NCBI GenBank assembly: GCA_903862415.1
Contig: CAIOYD010000010.1
Location: 37,209 to 101,208, forward strand
Direction: 5' to 3'
Length of the DNA stretch: 64,000 bases
Source: an uncultured Oxalobacteraceae bacterium
Lineage (GTDB): Bacteria; Pseudomonadota; Gammaproteobacteria; Burkholderiales; Burkholderiaceae_D
In this document: positions 23,591 through 56,149 of the stretch, one piece after another
How the letters are laid out: each line of letters opens with the position of its first letter
Position numbering within the stretch: position 1 is the stretch's first letter
The notes under the pieces: generated by a model
Seen by the model: the letters and a program-made list of their open reading frames with translations, nothing else
Database searches by the model: none
Told to the model about the DNA's origin: nothing
Made by a program: the position numbers and the translations under genes

Positions 23591-23626
23591 ACAGGGAGCG
23601 AATTATGTCGACCATATGATCGAGGT

Positions 23627-25900
23627 TTATATATTTGTTTGTTCCTCCAAAACAGCCATTAATGATTCCATATCGCCTTTCATAATGAAAGTCAGATAAT
23701 CCGGAATGGCCGTCTGGTGTATGTTGTCCCCTGAGAGCAGGAACAAACTCTCAAAACCCAAGGCATGCAGTTGTTCAGCTATCTGGGTTCCTTTGAGGGC
23801 ATCCCAGGCGAAATGTTGATCGAGCATGATTTTGGCCTGCCTGGAATAGCGATGCGCTTTGGCCAGAAATTCATTCGGCTTGTGATAGAAATCTACCTGC
23901 TTTCCATAAGTCAGCATGCGAAAGCCATCGAGCAAGTCCTGATCATCATCTACAAAAACGATTTCCGTATTCAACAGTACGTCGTCCTGACTACCGCCAT
24001 CATTCAACGCACACACGTTTACCGCAACCTCAGTGGCTAATTGCTTGGGCAATACTTTTATGCCAGCCGCTCTGGCTTGCTGTTGCACCCGCTTATTGGC
24101 GTAATGACTGGTCACCAGAATCGCGCGCTGCATCTCGGTTTGCTGAATCACGTCCAGACCAGTCAGATTTTGTTTAAGTAATTCATAATCCGCCAGCAAA
24201 AACACCTGCTGTTTTTGCTCCGGACTGAGGCCGGAAATAAAATCAATTGCTTCCCGGCCCAGTTCCAGATGCTTAATGGTCAGCTGCGGATACACTTTGC
24301 AGATTTTTTCCAAACGCAAATCCCAGGCATGTTGTATGGAACTGTCGTCATCCAAAATCACTACCGTATCATGATCAAACAGTTCCACACTGTCAGCTAT
24401 CCAGTCGAGTGCAGGTGCGAGCGGGAAGGACAGCGTAATTTCCGCACCGGCATCCGGGCGGGAACGAATATCCAACTTGCCGTGATTATGCTTCAGCGTT
24501 TCCCGGACCTGAGTCATCTCTAAGCCATGCCCATCAGCTTTACCCTGAGTCACCACCAACTGATCAAGAATTTTTTGTCGCACTTCCGGACTCATGCCTT
24601 TGCCATCATCCATCACCTTAATGTGCACCTCATTGTTATCCGTATACAGGCACAGGGAAATATTTCCTTCCCGACTTTCAAGGGCGTCAACAGAATTATT
24701 AATCAGATTGGACAGCATGCGCCCAAACGCGCCCGGTTGAATAAGTATCCAGGAAAATTCACTGCCATGAACGAAAGCCGTGTCGAATTTGATCGGCAGA
24801 TCGGCGTACTGGTATTTTTTTTCCGTCAGCAATTCCAACAGCAGCGGTGCGACCAACAGAGTTTCTGGCACGTCAGCCACTGACGCAGGCTGCACTAATT
24901 TTTTGTAATCGTGCAGCAAATTATTGGCAATATCATTGATTCTGACAGCAGCTTCGCGGATGGCGATGCGCTGTTTTTCCGGGATGCCGTCGCATACTTT
25001 AGTCAAAATTGACAGCGTGGTCAGCGGGGAACGGATATCGTGGGCAACCTGATCAACACTGGCACGGAATTTTTCCTGCTCCTGAGCAAAGACTTGCTGG
25101 GTTTCAAATTCCAGCCGTAATTGTTGCGCTTCTTTTTCTGCGGTAATATCGAGTGAAGCACCGATGGTGCCGATAATCCTGCCATCATCATCGTATAAGG
25201 GTGCAATCACGGCCTTGAAATATTTCACTTCCCTGGTGGTGATATCTTCAATGGCTTCTTCACCAAAAAATGGCTGACCGCTGCGTACCACTTCGCTGTG
25301 ATGGCGCATGATGTTGCGTGCCATTGTTTCGGGATAAATATCCAGCGGTGTTTTTTTAAACAATTCATCTTTGCTAAATTGCGCTCCTATATTTCTCAAC
25401 GTGGGACTGTTAGCTCCGATAAATTTTTGACTTGTATCAAACCAATACACTGATATCGGCAAAAGCTCGGCCACCATTTTTAAATGGTTTAATACACGTT
25501 CATAATTTAAATATTCAACGGTAATTTTCTCACGTGTGATATCCGTGGAAATTCCAGCCGTGCCAATAATTTCACCACTATCATCGCGCAAAGGCCAAAT
25601 TGTGGCCGTGTAATATTGAACCGCGCCAGTGATCCTGTTTTTAATAGTTTCTTCAAAAGTCAACGTTGTGCCTTTAAGCATGACTTCTTTGTGATGCGAC
25701 AGAATCTCATGCGCAAAAGTATGGGGATATAAATCATAGCAAGTTTTCCCAATGACATCTGCCTGCGATTTGACGCCAATTTCAGCGAGTGTCAAATCAT
25801 TTGCACCCAACCAAATATGGTTAACATCCAACCAGTAAAAAGGCACAGCCACATTTCTTGCAGTGATGGCCAGCTCAGTTAATACAGATTTTGCAGTCAT
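23627..25900 (-). CDS. PAS-PAS hybrid sensor histidine kinase with two C-terminal receiver-like domains
   Basis: Two PAS/PAC repeats, VAHDIRSPLTTLSIL H-box, HATPase motifs (NLINNSVDALES, DDGKGMS), then VVILDDDSSIQ and VFVDDDQDLLDG receiver starts. Confidence 0.87.
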   Translation of the reverse strand: MTAKSVLTELAITARNVAVPFYWLDVNHIWLGANDLTLAEIGVKSQADVIGKTCYDLYPHTFAHEILSHHKEVMLKGTTLTFEETIKNRITGAVQYYTATIWPLRDDSGEIIGTAGISTDITREKITVEYLNYERVLNHLKMVAELLPISVYWFDTSQKFIGANSPTLRNIGAQFSKDELFKKTPLDIYPETMARNIMRHHSEVVRSGQPFFGEEAIEDITTREVKYFKAVIAPLYDDDGRIIGTIGASLDITAEKEAQQLRLEFETQQVFAQEQEKFRASVDQVAHDIRSPLTTLSILTKVCDGIPEKQRIAIREAAVRINDIANNLLHDYKKLVQPASVADVPETLLVAPLLLELLTEKKYQYADLPIKFDTAFVHGSEFSWILIQPGAFGRMLSNLINNSVDALESREGNISLCLYTDNNEVHIKVMDDGKGMSPEVRQKILDQLVVTQGKADGHGLEMTQVRETLKHNHGKLDIRSRPDAGAEITLSFPLAPALDWIADSVELFDHDTVVILDDDSSIQHAWDLRLEKICKVYPQLTIKHLELGREAIDFISGLSPEQKQQVFLLADYELLKQNLTGLDVIQQTEMQRAILVTSHYANKRVQQQARAAGIKVLPKQLATEVAVNVCALNDGGSQDDVLLNTEIVFVDDDQDLLDGFRMLTYGKQVDFYHKPNEFLAKAHRYSRQAKIMLDQHFAWDALKGTQIAEQLHALGFESLFLLSGDNIHQTAIPDYLTFIMKGDMESLMAVLEEQTNI

Positions 25901-26084
25901 GTTAATTTTCCTTTCTTTGTATTACTTAATATAAGCATTACCTGGTTGATCCGTAATTAATGGTCTGTAAAATTTCAATTACTGAAAATGGCCACTGATT
26001 TTCTTAGCCTCGTTTGGATAGCGATGACCGGTGAAAGTTCCGGATTTTTCAGCCAGATTTAATAAAGTAAAGTATGGTTATGCT

Positions 26085-28967
26085 TCATCCACGATAGCCA
26101 TAAACGATAACCTCGTCATCATTACGGGAAATATATTCCAGACTCCGGTCAGGCAAGCGACGCACCAGATCGCCGGTTCTGTACAGCGTGTGGTTGTAGC
26201 CGCGTTTTTTTTCTGAGCGTCGCTGAAAGGGATTGGGAATAAAACGTTCAGCGGTCAGCCCGGATTGGTTTAAATAGCCGCGCGCCAATCTGTCGCCACC
26301 GATGAGCAATTCGCCGACAGCTCCGTTGGGCAGCAGCGATAATTGGCTATCCACGATATAACTGCATTGTTGGGGCAACATTTGTCCGATACAGGAACAG
26401 TCGCCCAATGCCGCCGGATTTATTTTTTTAAATGTGGAAACTATCGTCACTTCGGTAATACCGAACATATTAATTAATTGCGGCTTATCTCGATAGTTAC
26501 TTGAAAACCAGGGATTAAGGAGCGCAAAATTGAGCTTTTCACCACCAAATATAATGTAACGTAACTGACTTAAGCGTTGGCTGTGGTTTTTTAAAATAAT
26601 TTCGCTTAACTGATAAAAAGCCGACGGCGTTTGATTCAGCACAGTCACCCCCGCGGTGTAACATAAACTCTGCAACTCTTCAAAATCCCTGAGCTGCTGT
26701 GCGTTGGGAATCACCAGCCTGCCGCCATACAATAACGCACCCCACATTTCCCAGACTGAAAAATCAAACACATAGGAATGAAATAACAACCACACATCCT
26801 GATCATTAAAATCATAAACAGCTTCGCTGGCCTTAAACAGGCTGGCCACGTTATGCTGGGTTTGCAGTACCCCCTTGGGCTGACCGGTGGTGCCACTGGT
26901 GTAAATCACATAGGCTAAATGATGACTCGCTGGCGGTGTGGTTAAATTGGTTTCCGCTTCGCGGCCGAGTTGTTCCAGCACCTGCGGACTGTCCAGACAC
27001 ACCAGCATAAGGTGTGCTAAAACGGGATTCAATCTGTGCTGATGAACTGCATGCAAAATCACCACTCTGACGGCGGTATCTTCCAGAATATAATGCAGCC
27101 GGTTGTCGGGACAGCGCGGATTGATAGGCACATAAGCTGCCGCACATTTGAGCACCGCCAGAATGGCAATCACCGTGTGCACGCTTTTATCGAGGCACAG
27201 TGCAATCAACTCGTCGGGCTGGATTGAACAAGTCCGGCTAAGGTAATGCGCCAGCTGGTTGGCCTGCTGGTTAATTTCGTGATAGCTCCAGGTGCGGTGT
27301 TCATCCACGATAGCGGTGTGATGGGGATTGTTTTCTACCTGTTGTTCAAATAACTGCGTTATCGATTTTTGGTGTAAGGGGGCGGCAACGGTGCTGTAAC
27401 GCGTCAGCAGATTTTTCCGTGTCCGTGCAGAGAACCAGTTAACGCTGCTGATGGTTGTGTCAGGCTGACGCAGCAATTGCGAAAATAAGTCAATGAATGG
27501 CTCAGGCAGTGGTGGAAATGCTTCATCGGGCTGATGAATTTGCGCATCCATGTCGAGCCGGAAGGCGCACAATTCTGGCGGCACGATCCTGGCCAGTTCG
27601 GGATAACGCAACCAGATATCATTGAGGTAACCCGGTTGTTGTGCCAGCTCGCGGCAATGGGCGCGCACCTGCTGAACCAGTTGAACAAAACTAATGTGTT
27701 CATGCAACGTAAAGGATGCGGGCAAGTCTGACGCCAACAACGGTGGCAGCGCACTTGACGAATGTCGCAGGCAGATCTGCAGCTGGGTCTGGCCTGTCAG
27801 ACGATACAGATACACCAGCCAGGCGCTCAACAACATCAGCGGCAACTGCGCATTGTTATGACACAATTTCAGGCAGCGCGCCTGCAATGCTTTGGGTAGT
27901 GCCTGTACGCTCAGCACGGGCTGTGATCCCGGCGCGGCCCCTGGCAAGGTGGTCGGTTGAAACTGCCGCAGTTTGTCCACCCAACCGGATTCACACAGCG
28001 CAATCTGATCGCTGATGGTTTGCAGTTGCTGCTGTTGTGCGTCGCTGGGCACAGGCAAGAGCACACCGGGTTGAATATGGTATTCCCTGGCCAAAGCAGT
28101 CAGTGTCACAGCCTGGGGAAAGTGGCGACTGAGTTTGGTCAGTAAAAGATTGCCGGTCGTGGTGCAGACTTTCCAGTGGCTGGCGCTGACTTCAATGACG
28201 GTACCCGCTGGGTACAACGAGGGTTCGGTACATTTCTTAAGACCAGCGACGATCAGCAAGTCGTTACCCAGCCCCATTTTTAACTGCGAAAATGGATTGC
28301 GATGCTCGCCATATTGGGTGGCGCGCCACAGCCTTTCGATATCGTCCGCACTGTTATGCCAATTCAGCCAGCCATTACCGGTTGGTTTTTGCGTACGCGA
28401 AAAAAAACTGCGTTGGGAACGATCCTGGGGAATGCGTTGGTAAGAATGATTGAGTAATTCCTCGGCCAGTTCAGTCAACGCCTCGAGGGCATGTTGGGTG
28501 CATTTGACATTCAGGCTGGATACGGTTTCGTCAGGCAAGACTGGAAATGTCACCTGTTTGACGATATCGCCACTATCCACGTTGGGAGCAATGCAGTGCC
28601 AGCTGATGCCATAGGTGGTTTCGTTTTGCAGAATGGCCCAGGCGGTGGAATTGCTGCCTGCATAGCGCGGCAAGGGTGCGTCGTGATAATGCAAGCTCAG
28701 ACAGCCGATGCGTTGCAGTACTTTTGCCGGAATAAGTTGGTCGTTGGAAATGCTGAATAAATAATCGGCCGGGTTATGGTCCCAATCAATATCAGACAAC
28801 GTAGCAACCCAGTTAATTTGCTGTTGCTGCGCCCAGGCCTCGATAGCGCTGGACGTGGAAATAATGGCGTTAATCTGAAAAGATTTAGTCTGTAAAATTT
28901 TGGCGCAGTTAAGTAACAACTGGCCTTGCCCTATCAGATAACAGGTGGGTGTTGTTGAGTTTTTCAT
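26085..28967 (-). CDS. Formyltransferase-adenylation NRPS-like protein, ends inside the A domain
   Basis: N-terminal formyltransferase-like domain (HYHDAPLPRYAGSNSTAWAIL), C-domain-like remnant, A domain (YVIYTSGTTGQPKGV, FGITEVTI, YRTGDLVR); stops at DDEVIVYGYRG, no carrier protein domain. Confidence 0.85.
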   Translation of the reverse strand: MKNSTTPTCYLIGQGQLLLNCAKILQTKSFQINAIISTSSAIEAWAQQQQINWVATLSDIDWDHNPADYLFSISNDQLIPAKVLQRIGCLSLHYHDAPLPRYAGSNSTAWAILQNETTYGISWHCIAPNVDSGDIVKQVTFPVLPDETVSSLNVKCTQHALEALTELAEELLNHSYQRIPQDRSQRSFFSRTQKPTGNGWLNWHNSADDIERLWRATQYGEHRNPFSQLKMGLGNDLLIVAGLKKCTEPSLYPAGTVIEVSASHWKVCTTTGNLLLTKLSRHFPQAVTLTALAREYHIQPGVLLPVPSDAQQQQLQTISDQIALCESGWVDKLRQFQPTTLPGAAPGSQPVLSVQALPKALQARCLKLCHNNAQLPLMLLSAWLVYLYRLTGQTQLQICLRHSSSALPPLLASDLPASFTLHEHISFVQLVQQVRAHCRELAQQPGYLNDIWLRYPELARIVPPELCAFRLDMDAQIHQPDEAFPPLPEPFIDLFSQLLRQPDTTISSVNWFSARTRKNLLTRYSTVAAPLHQKSITQLFEQQVENNPHHTAIVDEHRTWSYHEINQQANQLAHYLSRTCSIQPDELIALCLDKSVHTVIAILAVLKCAAAYVPINPRCPDNRLHYILEDTAVRVVILHAVHQHRLNPVLAHLMLVCLDSPQVLEQLGREAETNLTTPPASHHLAYVIYTSGTTGQPKGVLQTQHNVASLFKASEAVYDFNDQDVWLLFHSYVFDFSVWEMWGALLYGGRLVIPNAQQLRDFEELQSLCYTAGVTVLNQTPSAFYQLSEIILKNHSQRLSQLRYIIFGGEKLNFALLNPWFSSNYRDKPQLINMFGITEVTIVSTFKKINPAALGDCSCIGQMLPQQCSYIVDSQLSLLPNGAVGELLIGGDRLARGYLNQSGLTAERFIPNPFQRRSEKKRGYNHTLYRTGDLVRRLPDRSLEYISRNDDEVIVYGYRG

Positions 28968-29042
28968 GGCAGTAAAGATGGAGGGTTTAAAAGCGGATAA
29001 GGATGATTGTCAATGGTTAAATAAATAACCATAGTTATACAT

Positions 29043-29078
29043 ACGAGAACTTAGCGTAATGATAAGTTCCCGTTTTTT
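29043..29078 (+). terminator. Orphan terminator-like hairpin
   Basis: ACGAGAACTT-11 nt-AAGTTCCCGT (one mismatch) then TTTTTT; no + strand gene immediately upstream. Confidence 0.5.
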
Positions 29079-29411
29079 CTGTCAAATTTAAAAATTCAAA
29101 GCGGAAGGCAAAGACCAATAAAAAAACCGTAGTGATATCAGCAAGGCACCAAAATTTATTGACATAAAAACAGCTATTACTAATCCGTTATTACCCAGAC
29201 GCTCAAATTACAACACTCCGTTTTGCACCCGGCCAGAGCAAAGCCGCAGCGCCCTTATCACACCCGCCTGGCGGCGGAATAAATTTGATTTAACACAATC
29301 AAAGACCCCGGTTCGCGGGTATCATCATGCAGCTGATTAAAAAATCTGCGGCGCATTAAGCGGTGAAAAATCGCGTTTCATCGTTGATGCCCCATCACCC
29401 CCGACCAGGAC

Positions 29412-54297: not shown

Positions 54298-55242
54298 ATG
54301 AATCCAGAACTTTCCGTTGTCATTCCTATTTATAACGAGCAGGCCGGTTTAGCCCAGTTGTTTGCCCGTCTGTATCCTGCGCTGGACAAACTGGCCACCG
54401 ATGGCATCAGCTATGAAATTATTTTCGTCAACGATGGCAGTCGTGATCAGTCGGCGGTGATCTTATCCGAACAATTCCGCCTGCGACCCGACGTCACCCG
54501 GGTAGTGCTGTTTAACGGTAATTATGGTCAGCACATGGCCATCCTGGCAGGCTTTCAGACATCTCGCGGACAAATTACCGTCACGCTGGACGCCGATCTG
54601 CAAAACCCACCCGAAGAAATTGGAGCCCTGGTTGCCAAAATGCGCGAAGGCTTTGACTATGTCGGCTCTATCCGGCGCAAGCGCCAGGACAGCCTCTGGC
54701 GTACCTGGGCATCCAAAGCCATGAACCGCTTCCGGGAAAAAATTACCGGCATCAAAATTACCGATCAGGGCAATATGCTGCGCGCTTACGGTCGCAATGT
54801 CATCGACCTGATCAATCAGTGCGTTGAAATGAACACCTTCGTTCCGGCGCTGGCCTACACTTTTTCACGTCACCCGACCGAAATCACTGTCGAACACGAA
54901 GAACGTGCCGCCGGCGAATCCAAATATTCCTTATACAGTCTGATCCGTCTCAATTTTGATCTGATGACCGGATTTTCTATCGTGCCACTGCAACTGTTTT
55001 CCATGTTTGGCATGATCCTCTCCGCCGGATCCGGTGCACTGGTTTTACTCCTTCTGGTCCGCCGCTTTATTCTGGGCGCCGAAGCCGAAGGCTTGTTTAC
55101 CCTGTTTGCGATTTCTTTTTTCCTGATGGGCACTATCCTGTTTGGTATTGGATTACTGGGCGAATACATCGGCCGCATCTATCAGCAAGTGCGCGGTCGG
55201 CCGCGTTTTGTGATTCAAACTGTACTGGAACAACATGACTGA
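54298..55242 (+). CDS. arnC: Undecaprenyl-phosphate 4-deoxy-4-formamido-L-arabinose transferase
   Basis: GT2 domain (SVVIPIYNEQAGL, VTLDADLQNPPEEI) with two C-terminal TM segments. Confidence 0.93.
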   Translation: MNPELSVVIPIYNEQAGLAQLFARLYPALDKLATDGISYEIIFVNDGSRDQSAVILSEQFRLRPDVTRVVLFNGNYGQHMAILAGFQTSRGQITVTLDADLQNPPEEIGALVAKMREGFDYVGSIRRKRQDSLWRTWASKAMNRFREKITGIKITDQGNMLRAYGRNVIDLINQCVEMNTFVPALAYTFSRHPTEITVEHEERAAGESKYSLYSLIRLNFDLMTGFSIVPLQLFSMFGMILSAGSGALVLLLLVRRFILGAEAEGLFTLFAISFFLMGTILFGIGLLGEYIGRIYQQVRGRPRFVIQTVLEQHD

Positions 55243-56149
55243 CCCGACCCTGGCCAATCGTGCTGTGGTATTTGCTTATCACAGCGTCGGCGTGCACAGC
55301 ATCAAAGTCTTGCTGGCACGTGGCATTCACATCGAACTCGTCGTCACCCATCTGGATAACCCGAATGAAACCATCTGGTTTGATTCCGTCGCCGACCTGT
55401 GCGCCGAACACAACATTCCGACCCTGTTTGAACCGACAGCAGAAGAATTAATGACCGCAGTCACGCGCATAGCGCCGGATTTCATTTTCAGCTTTTACTA
55501 CCGCAACATGCTGCCCGTCGATCTGCTCGCACTGGCAACCCGTGGTGCCTACAACCTGCACGGCTCTCTGCTGCCAAAATACCGTGGCCGCGTCCCGGTC
55601 AACTGGGCCGTCCTGCATGGCGAAACCGAAACCGGCGTGACATTGCATGAAATGACCCTCAAACCGGATGCCGGCGCCATCATTGCTCAAACCAGCGTGC
55701 CGATTTTACCGGACGACACCGCCCATGACGTCTTCGGCAAGCTCACCGTCGCCTCCGAACAGACCCTGTGGCATGCCATTCCCCAGCTCTTAGCCGGCAC
55801 AGCAGCACGCCTGCCGAATGAATTAGCCCTGGGAAGTTACTTTGGCGGCCGCAAGCCCGAAGACGGCCGTATTAACTGGCAACTAAGCGGACAACAGGTC
55901 TACAACCTGCACCGCGCCGTTGCTCCGCCCTATCCCGGTGCATTTACTGATCAAAATAACCATCGTTTCATTATTAAAAAAGCATGTTTAGTAAATTCCC
56001 CTAAAGCAAATTTGCCGCAAGGCTTGTCAGTAGTGGATAATGTCGTTTTTGGCCAATGCGGAGATGGCCAGGCACTCAAAATCTATGAACTGCTATTCAA
56101 TGGCAATCTGATTACCGCACAACAGTTGCAACAATTAATCCTCCATTGA
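55235..56149 (+). CDS. Formyltransferase, ArnA N-terminal-domain type
   Basis: YNLHGSLLPKYRGRVPVNWAVLHGETETGVTLHEMTLKPDAGAIIAQ. Confidence 0.93.
   Translation: MTDPTLANRAVVFAYHSVGVHSIKVLLARGIHIELVVTHLDNPNETIWFDSVADLCAEHNIPTLFEPTAEELMTAVTRIAPDFIFSFYYRNMLPVDLLALATRGAYNLHGSLLPKYRGRVPVNWAVLHGETETGVTLHEMTLKPDAGAIIAQTSVPILPDDTAHDVFGKLTVASEQTLWHAIPQLLAGTAARLPNELALGSYFGGRKPEDGRINWQLSGQQVYNLHRAVAPPYPGAFTDQNNHRFIIKKACLVNSPKANLPQGLSVVDNVVFGQCGDGQALKIYELLFNGNLITAQQLQQLILH

Follow-up and report, generated by a model that had tools for sequence, protein, structure and literature searches.

A formylating NRPS gene that ends within motif A8 is probably the remainder of a longer, reductase-terminated synthetase

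Does an adenylation (A) domain that breaks off before its hinge belong to a new type of protein, or is it what is left of a longer synthetase? The question is raised by a single 960-codon ORF on the minus strand of the window, as we call the whole stretch of 64,000 nucleotides analyzed here from an uncultured Oxalobacteraceae bacterium (Table 1). Pfam placed Formyl_trans_N (PF00551, E 2.5e-13) at the N-terminus, over residues 73–164, and AMP-binding over residues 540–899, spanning positions 1–384 of the 384 in the profile. Motifs A1–A7 are all present in the A core, and with its N-terminal formyltransferase-like (F) domain the ORF resembles an LgrA-type initiation module. As an earlier note on this DNA had read, it closes with LEYISRNDDEVIVYGYRG-stop (also given as ISRNDDEVIVYGYRG-stop), that is, inside A8. 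Neither an A subdomain with the A10 lysine (by Pfam and three-frame reading of the ORF and of the 184 nt that separate its stop from the PAS kinase gene) nor a carrier protein domain (in the ORF or directly after it) was detected, in agreement with that note. All three frames of the 184-nt gap close early and none is like an A subdomain. This rules out a simple downstream frameshift, which the note had rightly doubted, and an internal deletion fits best. A literature search turned up no description of an NRPS naturally truncated at A8.

Table 1 Features of the truncated NRPS locus (window positions)
Feature	Position	Strand	Basis
Truncated NRPS ORF, 960 aa: F – C-lobe (Cx) – A core, terminates within A8	26085..28967	-	ORF reading, Pfam, alignment to C44
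F domain, formyltransferase-like, residues 1–250; H93-Y-H95 in place of N-x-H	28218..28967	-	Pfam, F-domain alignments, LgrA alignment
Linker and condensation C-lobe (Cx), residues about 300–530, without HHxxxDG-bearing N-lobe; common to homologous F-NRPSs	27378..28070	-	Pfam profile, F-NRPS alignment
A core A1–A7 and damaged A8; Thr-like pocket	26088..27380	-	Pfam, motif check, alignments; 54% identity to C44 A2
Thioester-reductase C-terminus relic, LKFYRPLITDQPGNAYIK-stop, out of frame with ORF	25922..25978	-	DNA local score, stop-anchored peptide match
21-nt leader, RBS-like AAGAAAGGAAAATTAAC, like NRPS–kinase leader on contig C48	25901..25921	-	Junction comparison
PAS-PAS-HATPase kinase gene, 757 aa, usual downstream partner of own-genome NRPSs	23627..25900	-	Pfam, comparison of NRPS loci

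The gap itself holds a trace of what once followed A8. The last 18 codons and the stop of a thioester reductase lie 21 nt ahead of the kinase start; at the NRPS–kinase junction on contig C48 of the same genome, the equivalent tail, LNFFWPRMTPFQIDAYLK-stop, likewise lies 21 nt ahead. Comparison of the relic with this junction gave a DNA local score of 44, whereas 100 shuffles reached at most 30, and the stop-anchored peptide match had P = 0.001 with the C48 tail and P = 0.003 with the tail of a second own-genome NRPS, on contig C44. The reductase tail of an NRPS from another genome (L181) matched weakly on its own (P = 0.23) and picked the same register. A stop codon stands directly upstream of the relic, and the roughly 110–130 nt that separate it from the A8 stop have no counterpart elsewhere in the genome. 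Because the relic tail sits at the expected place, we infer that the gene once continued into a reductase domain and that its middle was removed by an internal deletion. Intact relatives together with leftover downstream sequence at the locus, the signs of an internal-deletion pseudogene, were both found. Thus, with a probability of roughly 80%, the ORF is a decaying pseudogene or encodes a non-functional truncated protein, being the 5′ remainder, by internal deletion, of a formylating, reductase-terminated NRPS.

The relic also bears on whether the enzyme could be split, its A subdomain and carrier being provided in trans by other genes. Free-standing carrier-sized proteins are present in the genome (on contig C71, and two on C50). 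However, the relic indicates that the gene was formerly continuous, the stop falls inside A8 rather than between domains, and the orphan A subdomain that the earlier note had suggested looking for did not turn up in this genome: all seven hits (7/7) lie inside larger adenylating ORFs. A split enzyme is scarcely credible on these grounds. It is also very improbable that the true gene is full length and that the assembly has collapsed or misjoined the missing part. Such errors would be favored by the repetitive nature of NRPS modules in a 78-contig draft, in which the C-A-PCP-R NRPS of C48 begins at the contig edge (its N-terminal part probably sits on the end of C56). Against this, the locus lies inside a 101-kb contig, the sequence spanning the break occurs only once in the assembly, the best own-genome relative is just 54% identical, too low for collapse, and no stray A subdomain is found in the genome.

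Full-length homologues, for which the earlier note had proposed a search, support the remnant reading. The paralogue on contig C44 (L125:8200–17622) is a 3140-aa protein with the order F-Cx-A-PCP-C-A[E]-PCP-R. Its first 953 residues are collinear with residues 1–959 of the window ORF at 41% identity, its second A domain (A2) is 54% identical to the window A core, and a PAS kinase gene comes next; it differs in that its F motif, NYH, is intact and its A subdomains, carriers and reductase are all there. L181, encoded in the genome of a distant class member (G442), is a complete 1571-aa protein with the order F-Cx-A-Asub-PCP-R, that of the presumed ancestor, and F-Cx-A-PCP-R as in L181 is the likely ancestral layout of the window gene. 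LgrA, subunit A of linear gramicidin synthetase (PDB 6mfy, 5es5), likewise has an N-terminal F followed by A, and the window A core aligns with it up to LgrA residue 596. Unlike the window ORF, LgrA possesses an A subdomain and a PCP, and its A core, from residue 204 on, follows F too closely to leave room for Cx.

The C44 NRPS has a further peculiarity: between A8 and A9, its A2 subdomain houses a condensation-family domain (L125:9943–11475, minus strand) with an epimerization-type motif (HHLIVDVVSW) and a TIGR01720 match below threshold. The nested A-domain activities named in a review are methyltransferase, oxidase, monooxygenase and reductase, the epimerization type not being among them (PMC8949500).

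The window ORF does not represent a conserved short architecture, since genuinely stop-ended F-NRPS ORFs with a recognizable A core among the fetched loci have an A subdomain, except for L174 and L132. The long ORF of L132 goes out of frame within the A region; L174:2765–5365, in another genome, is an 866-aa F-Cx-A ORF that has an intact F motif (NYHD) and a degenerate A domain and stops ahead of A5. In a separate case, the 1558-aa F-NRPS ORF of L180 (G446), the two matching parts of the A core stand about 420 residues apart. Neither the genus nor about 770 sampled genomes of the order and class yielded an orthologue that stops where this ORF does, a protein scan of genome contigs returned mostly unrelated A domains and no orthologue, and an F-NRPS is absent from all four genus mates.

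The short stretch between F and A had been described as condensation-like without an HHxxxDG motif. It is indeed C-like, with the N-lobe that bears this motif missing, and its shortness is not a sign of damage, as homologous F-NRPSs carry the same C-lobe half; Cx is on this account part of the architecture. Against the 456 positions of the Condensation profile, the window Cx matches 195–321 and the C44 paralogue 219–325, weakly and under the curated cut-off.

The Asn-His-Asp triad of the F domain is incomplete: Asn is replaced by His93, while His95 and Asp131 (VDSGD) are retained. The window H-Y-H sits opposite N-L-H in the LgrA alignment, and N-[YF]-H occurs in 19 of 19 F domains sampled elsewhere in the order and class as well as in the C44 paralogue, which makes the Asn-to-His change unique to the window ORF. 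The alignments thus bear out the HxH reading of the earlier note, and also its remark that the ArnA-like formyltransferase elsewhere in the window (55235–56149) keeps NLH. Conserved F columns are broken at 10 of 47 positions, compared with 5 in the paralogue and at most 6 in the 19 references, and unique changes number 15 in the window F domain vs 4 in that of C44 (P = 0.019). Judged from these alignments, the window F domain has changed faster than that of the paralogue and lacks one catalytic residue.

Of 61 conserved A-core positions ahead of the stop, 11 are changed, and five of these fall within roughly the final 20 residues; reference A cores average 2.8% changed positions, with a maximum of 19.7%. 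The body of the core shows no excess of unique changes (24 vs 36 in C44 A2, P = 0.155). Its pocket, read by eye from the alignment as D-F-W-N-I-G-M-I-V, is close to DFWNIGMVHK, which we take to be the Thr code, in keeping with the Thr-type pocket proposed earlier. By alignment and known codes, window A and C44 A2 would be Thr-like and C44 A1 Ser-like. With 10% of residues changed, neutrality predicts about six stops, and the window ORF has none (P(0) = 0.002). The F domain is accelerated and the A core is not, a difference that makes the loss look fairly recent. On this scale, either the truncation happened recently or some constraint still acts on the A core.

The second of these possibilities leads to the other branch that the earlier note had left open, a repurposed protein whose A core was kept, without catalysis, for binding or as a scaffold; it might, for instance, sense Thr, ATP or the NRPS product together with the adjacent PAS kinase. 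A1–A7 remain intact with no rate excess, whereas the damage lies in A8 and in the F active site, and 960 codons are still open; together with the unmatched nucleotides before the relic, the open frame and the unaccelerated A-core body count against a remnant. Contig C2 of the same genome encodes an 863-aa C-A NRPS-like ORF (L128:5009–7600) that also terminates at A8; its A3 (SGTTG) and HHxxxD motifs are gone and its A core is degenerate, yet it contains no internal stop. Nevertheless, C2 has no F domain in common with the window ORF, an orthologue with the same end point is missing from the genomes sampled, the relic points to a deletion event, and the relaxed F domain speaks against constraint on the whole protein. 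Repurposing is consequently unlikely, and we hold it equally doubtful, if not more so, that a carrier-less F-Cx-A-core protein was retained after truncation as a non-catalytic partner of the PAS kinase, the C2 protein being a second NRPS fragment kept up to A8. The reductase relic, the intact relatives, the lack of an orphan A subdomain and the faster F domain favor the remnant; repurposing is the weaker of the two branches and keeps some probability, given an A-core body with no surplus of changes.

The surroundings connect the remnant to a recurrent gene pair. Related PAS kinase genes follow three NRPS genes of this genome, in the window, at L125:6611–8140 and at L127:3893–6637; that of C44 is shortened by a stop inside the region of similarity. 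Three genus mates have this locus, and two of them lack the NRPS–kinase unit: in G001 and G003, fdx adjoins the ribonucleotide reductase gene (311 and about 150 nt apart). In G002, this site is occupied by other genes, including a different kinase. The inserts in the gap between fdx and the ribonucleotide reductase gene (window 23591–29411; L186:4508–10915) differ among members of the genus, and comparison of the flanks with the empty sites gave no significant match that would mark an insertion scar.

Based on these data, we propose a plausible history of the locus. The original gene, upstream of the PAS kinase gene, would have encoded a formylating NRPS that ended in a reductase, its layout probably being F-Cx-A(Thr)-PCP-R. 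An internal deletion, reaching from the end of A8 to the last reductase codons, would then have taken out the A subdomain, the carrier and most of the reductase. The remaining product would be expected to form no acyl-adenylate efficiently, load no carrier and release no product, and its F domain is missing one catalytic residue. The apparent A domain without its hinge is best explained as the result of this deletion, and the ORF is most likely a dying duplicate rather than a new protein type. Its biology is ordinary; what it documents is the presence in one lineage, and the later decay, of a reductase-terminated formylating NRPS that has a PAS kinase as its partner. Because the review (PMC8949500) counts just three peptides for which an F domain is known, the intact F-Cx-A-...-R relatives are the more useful leads.
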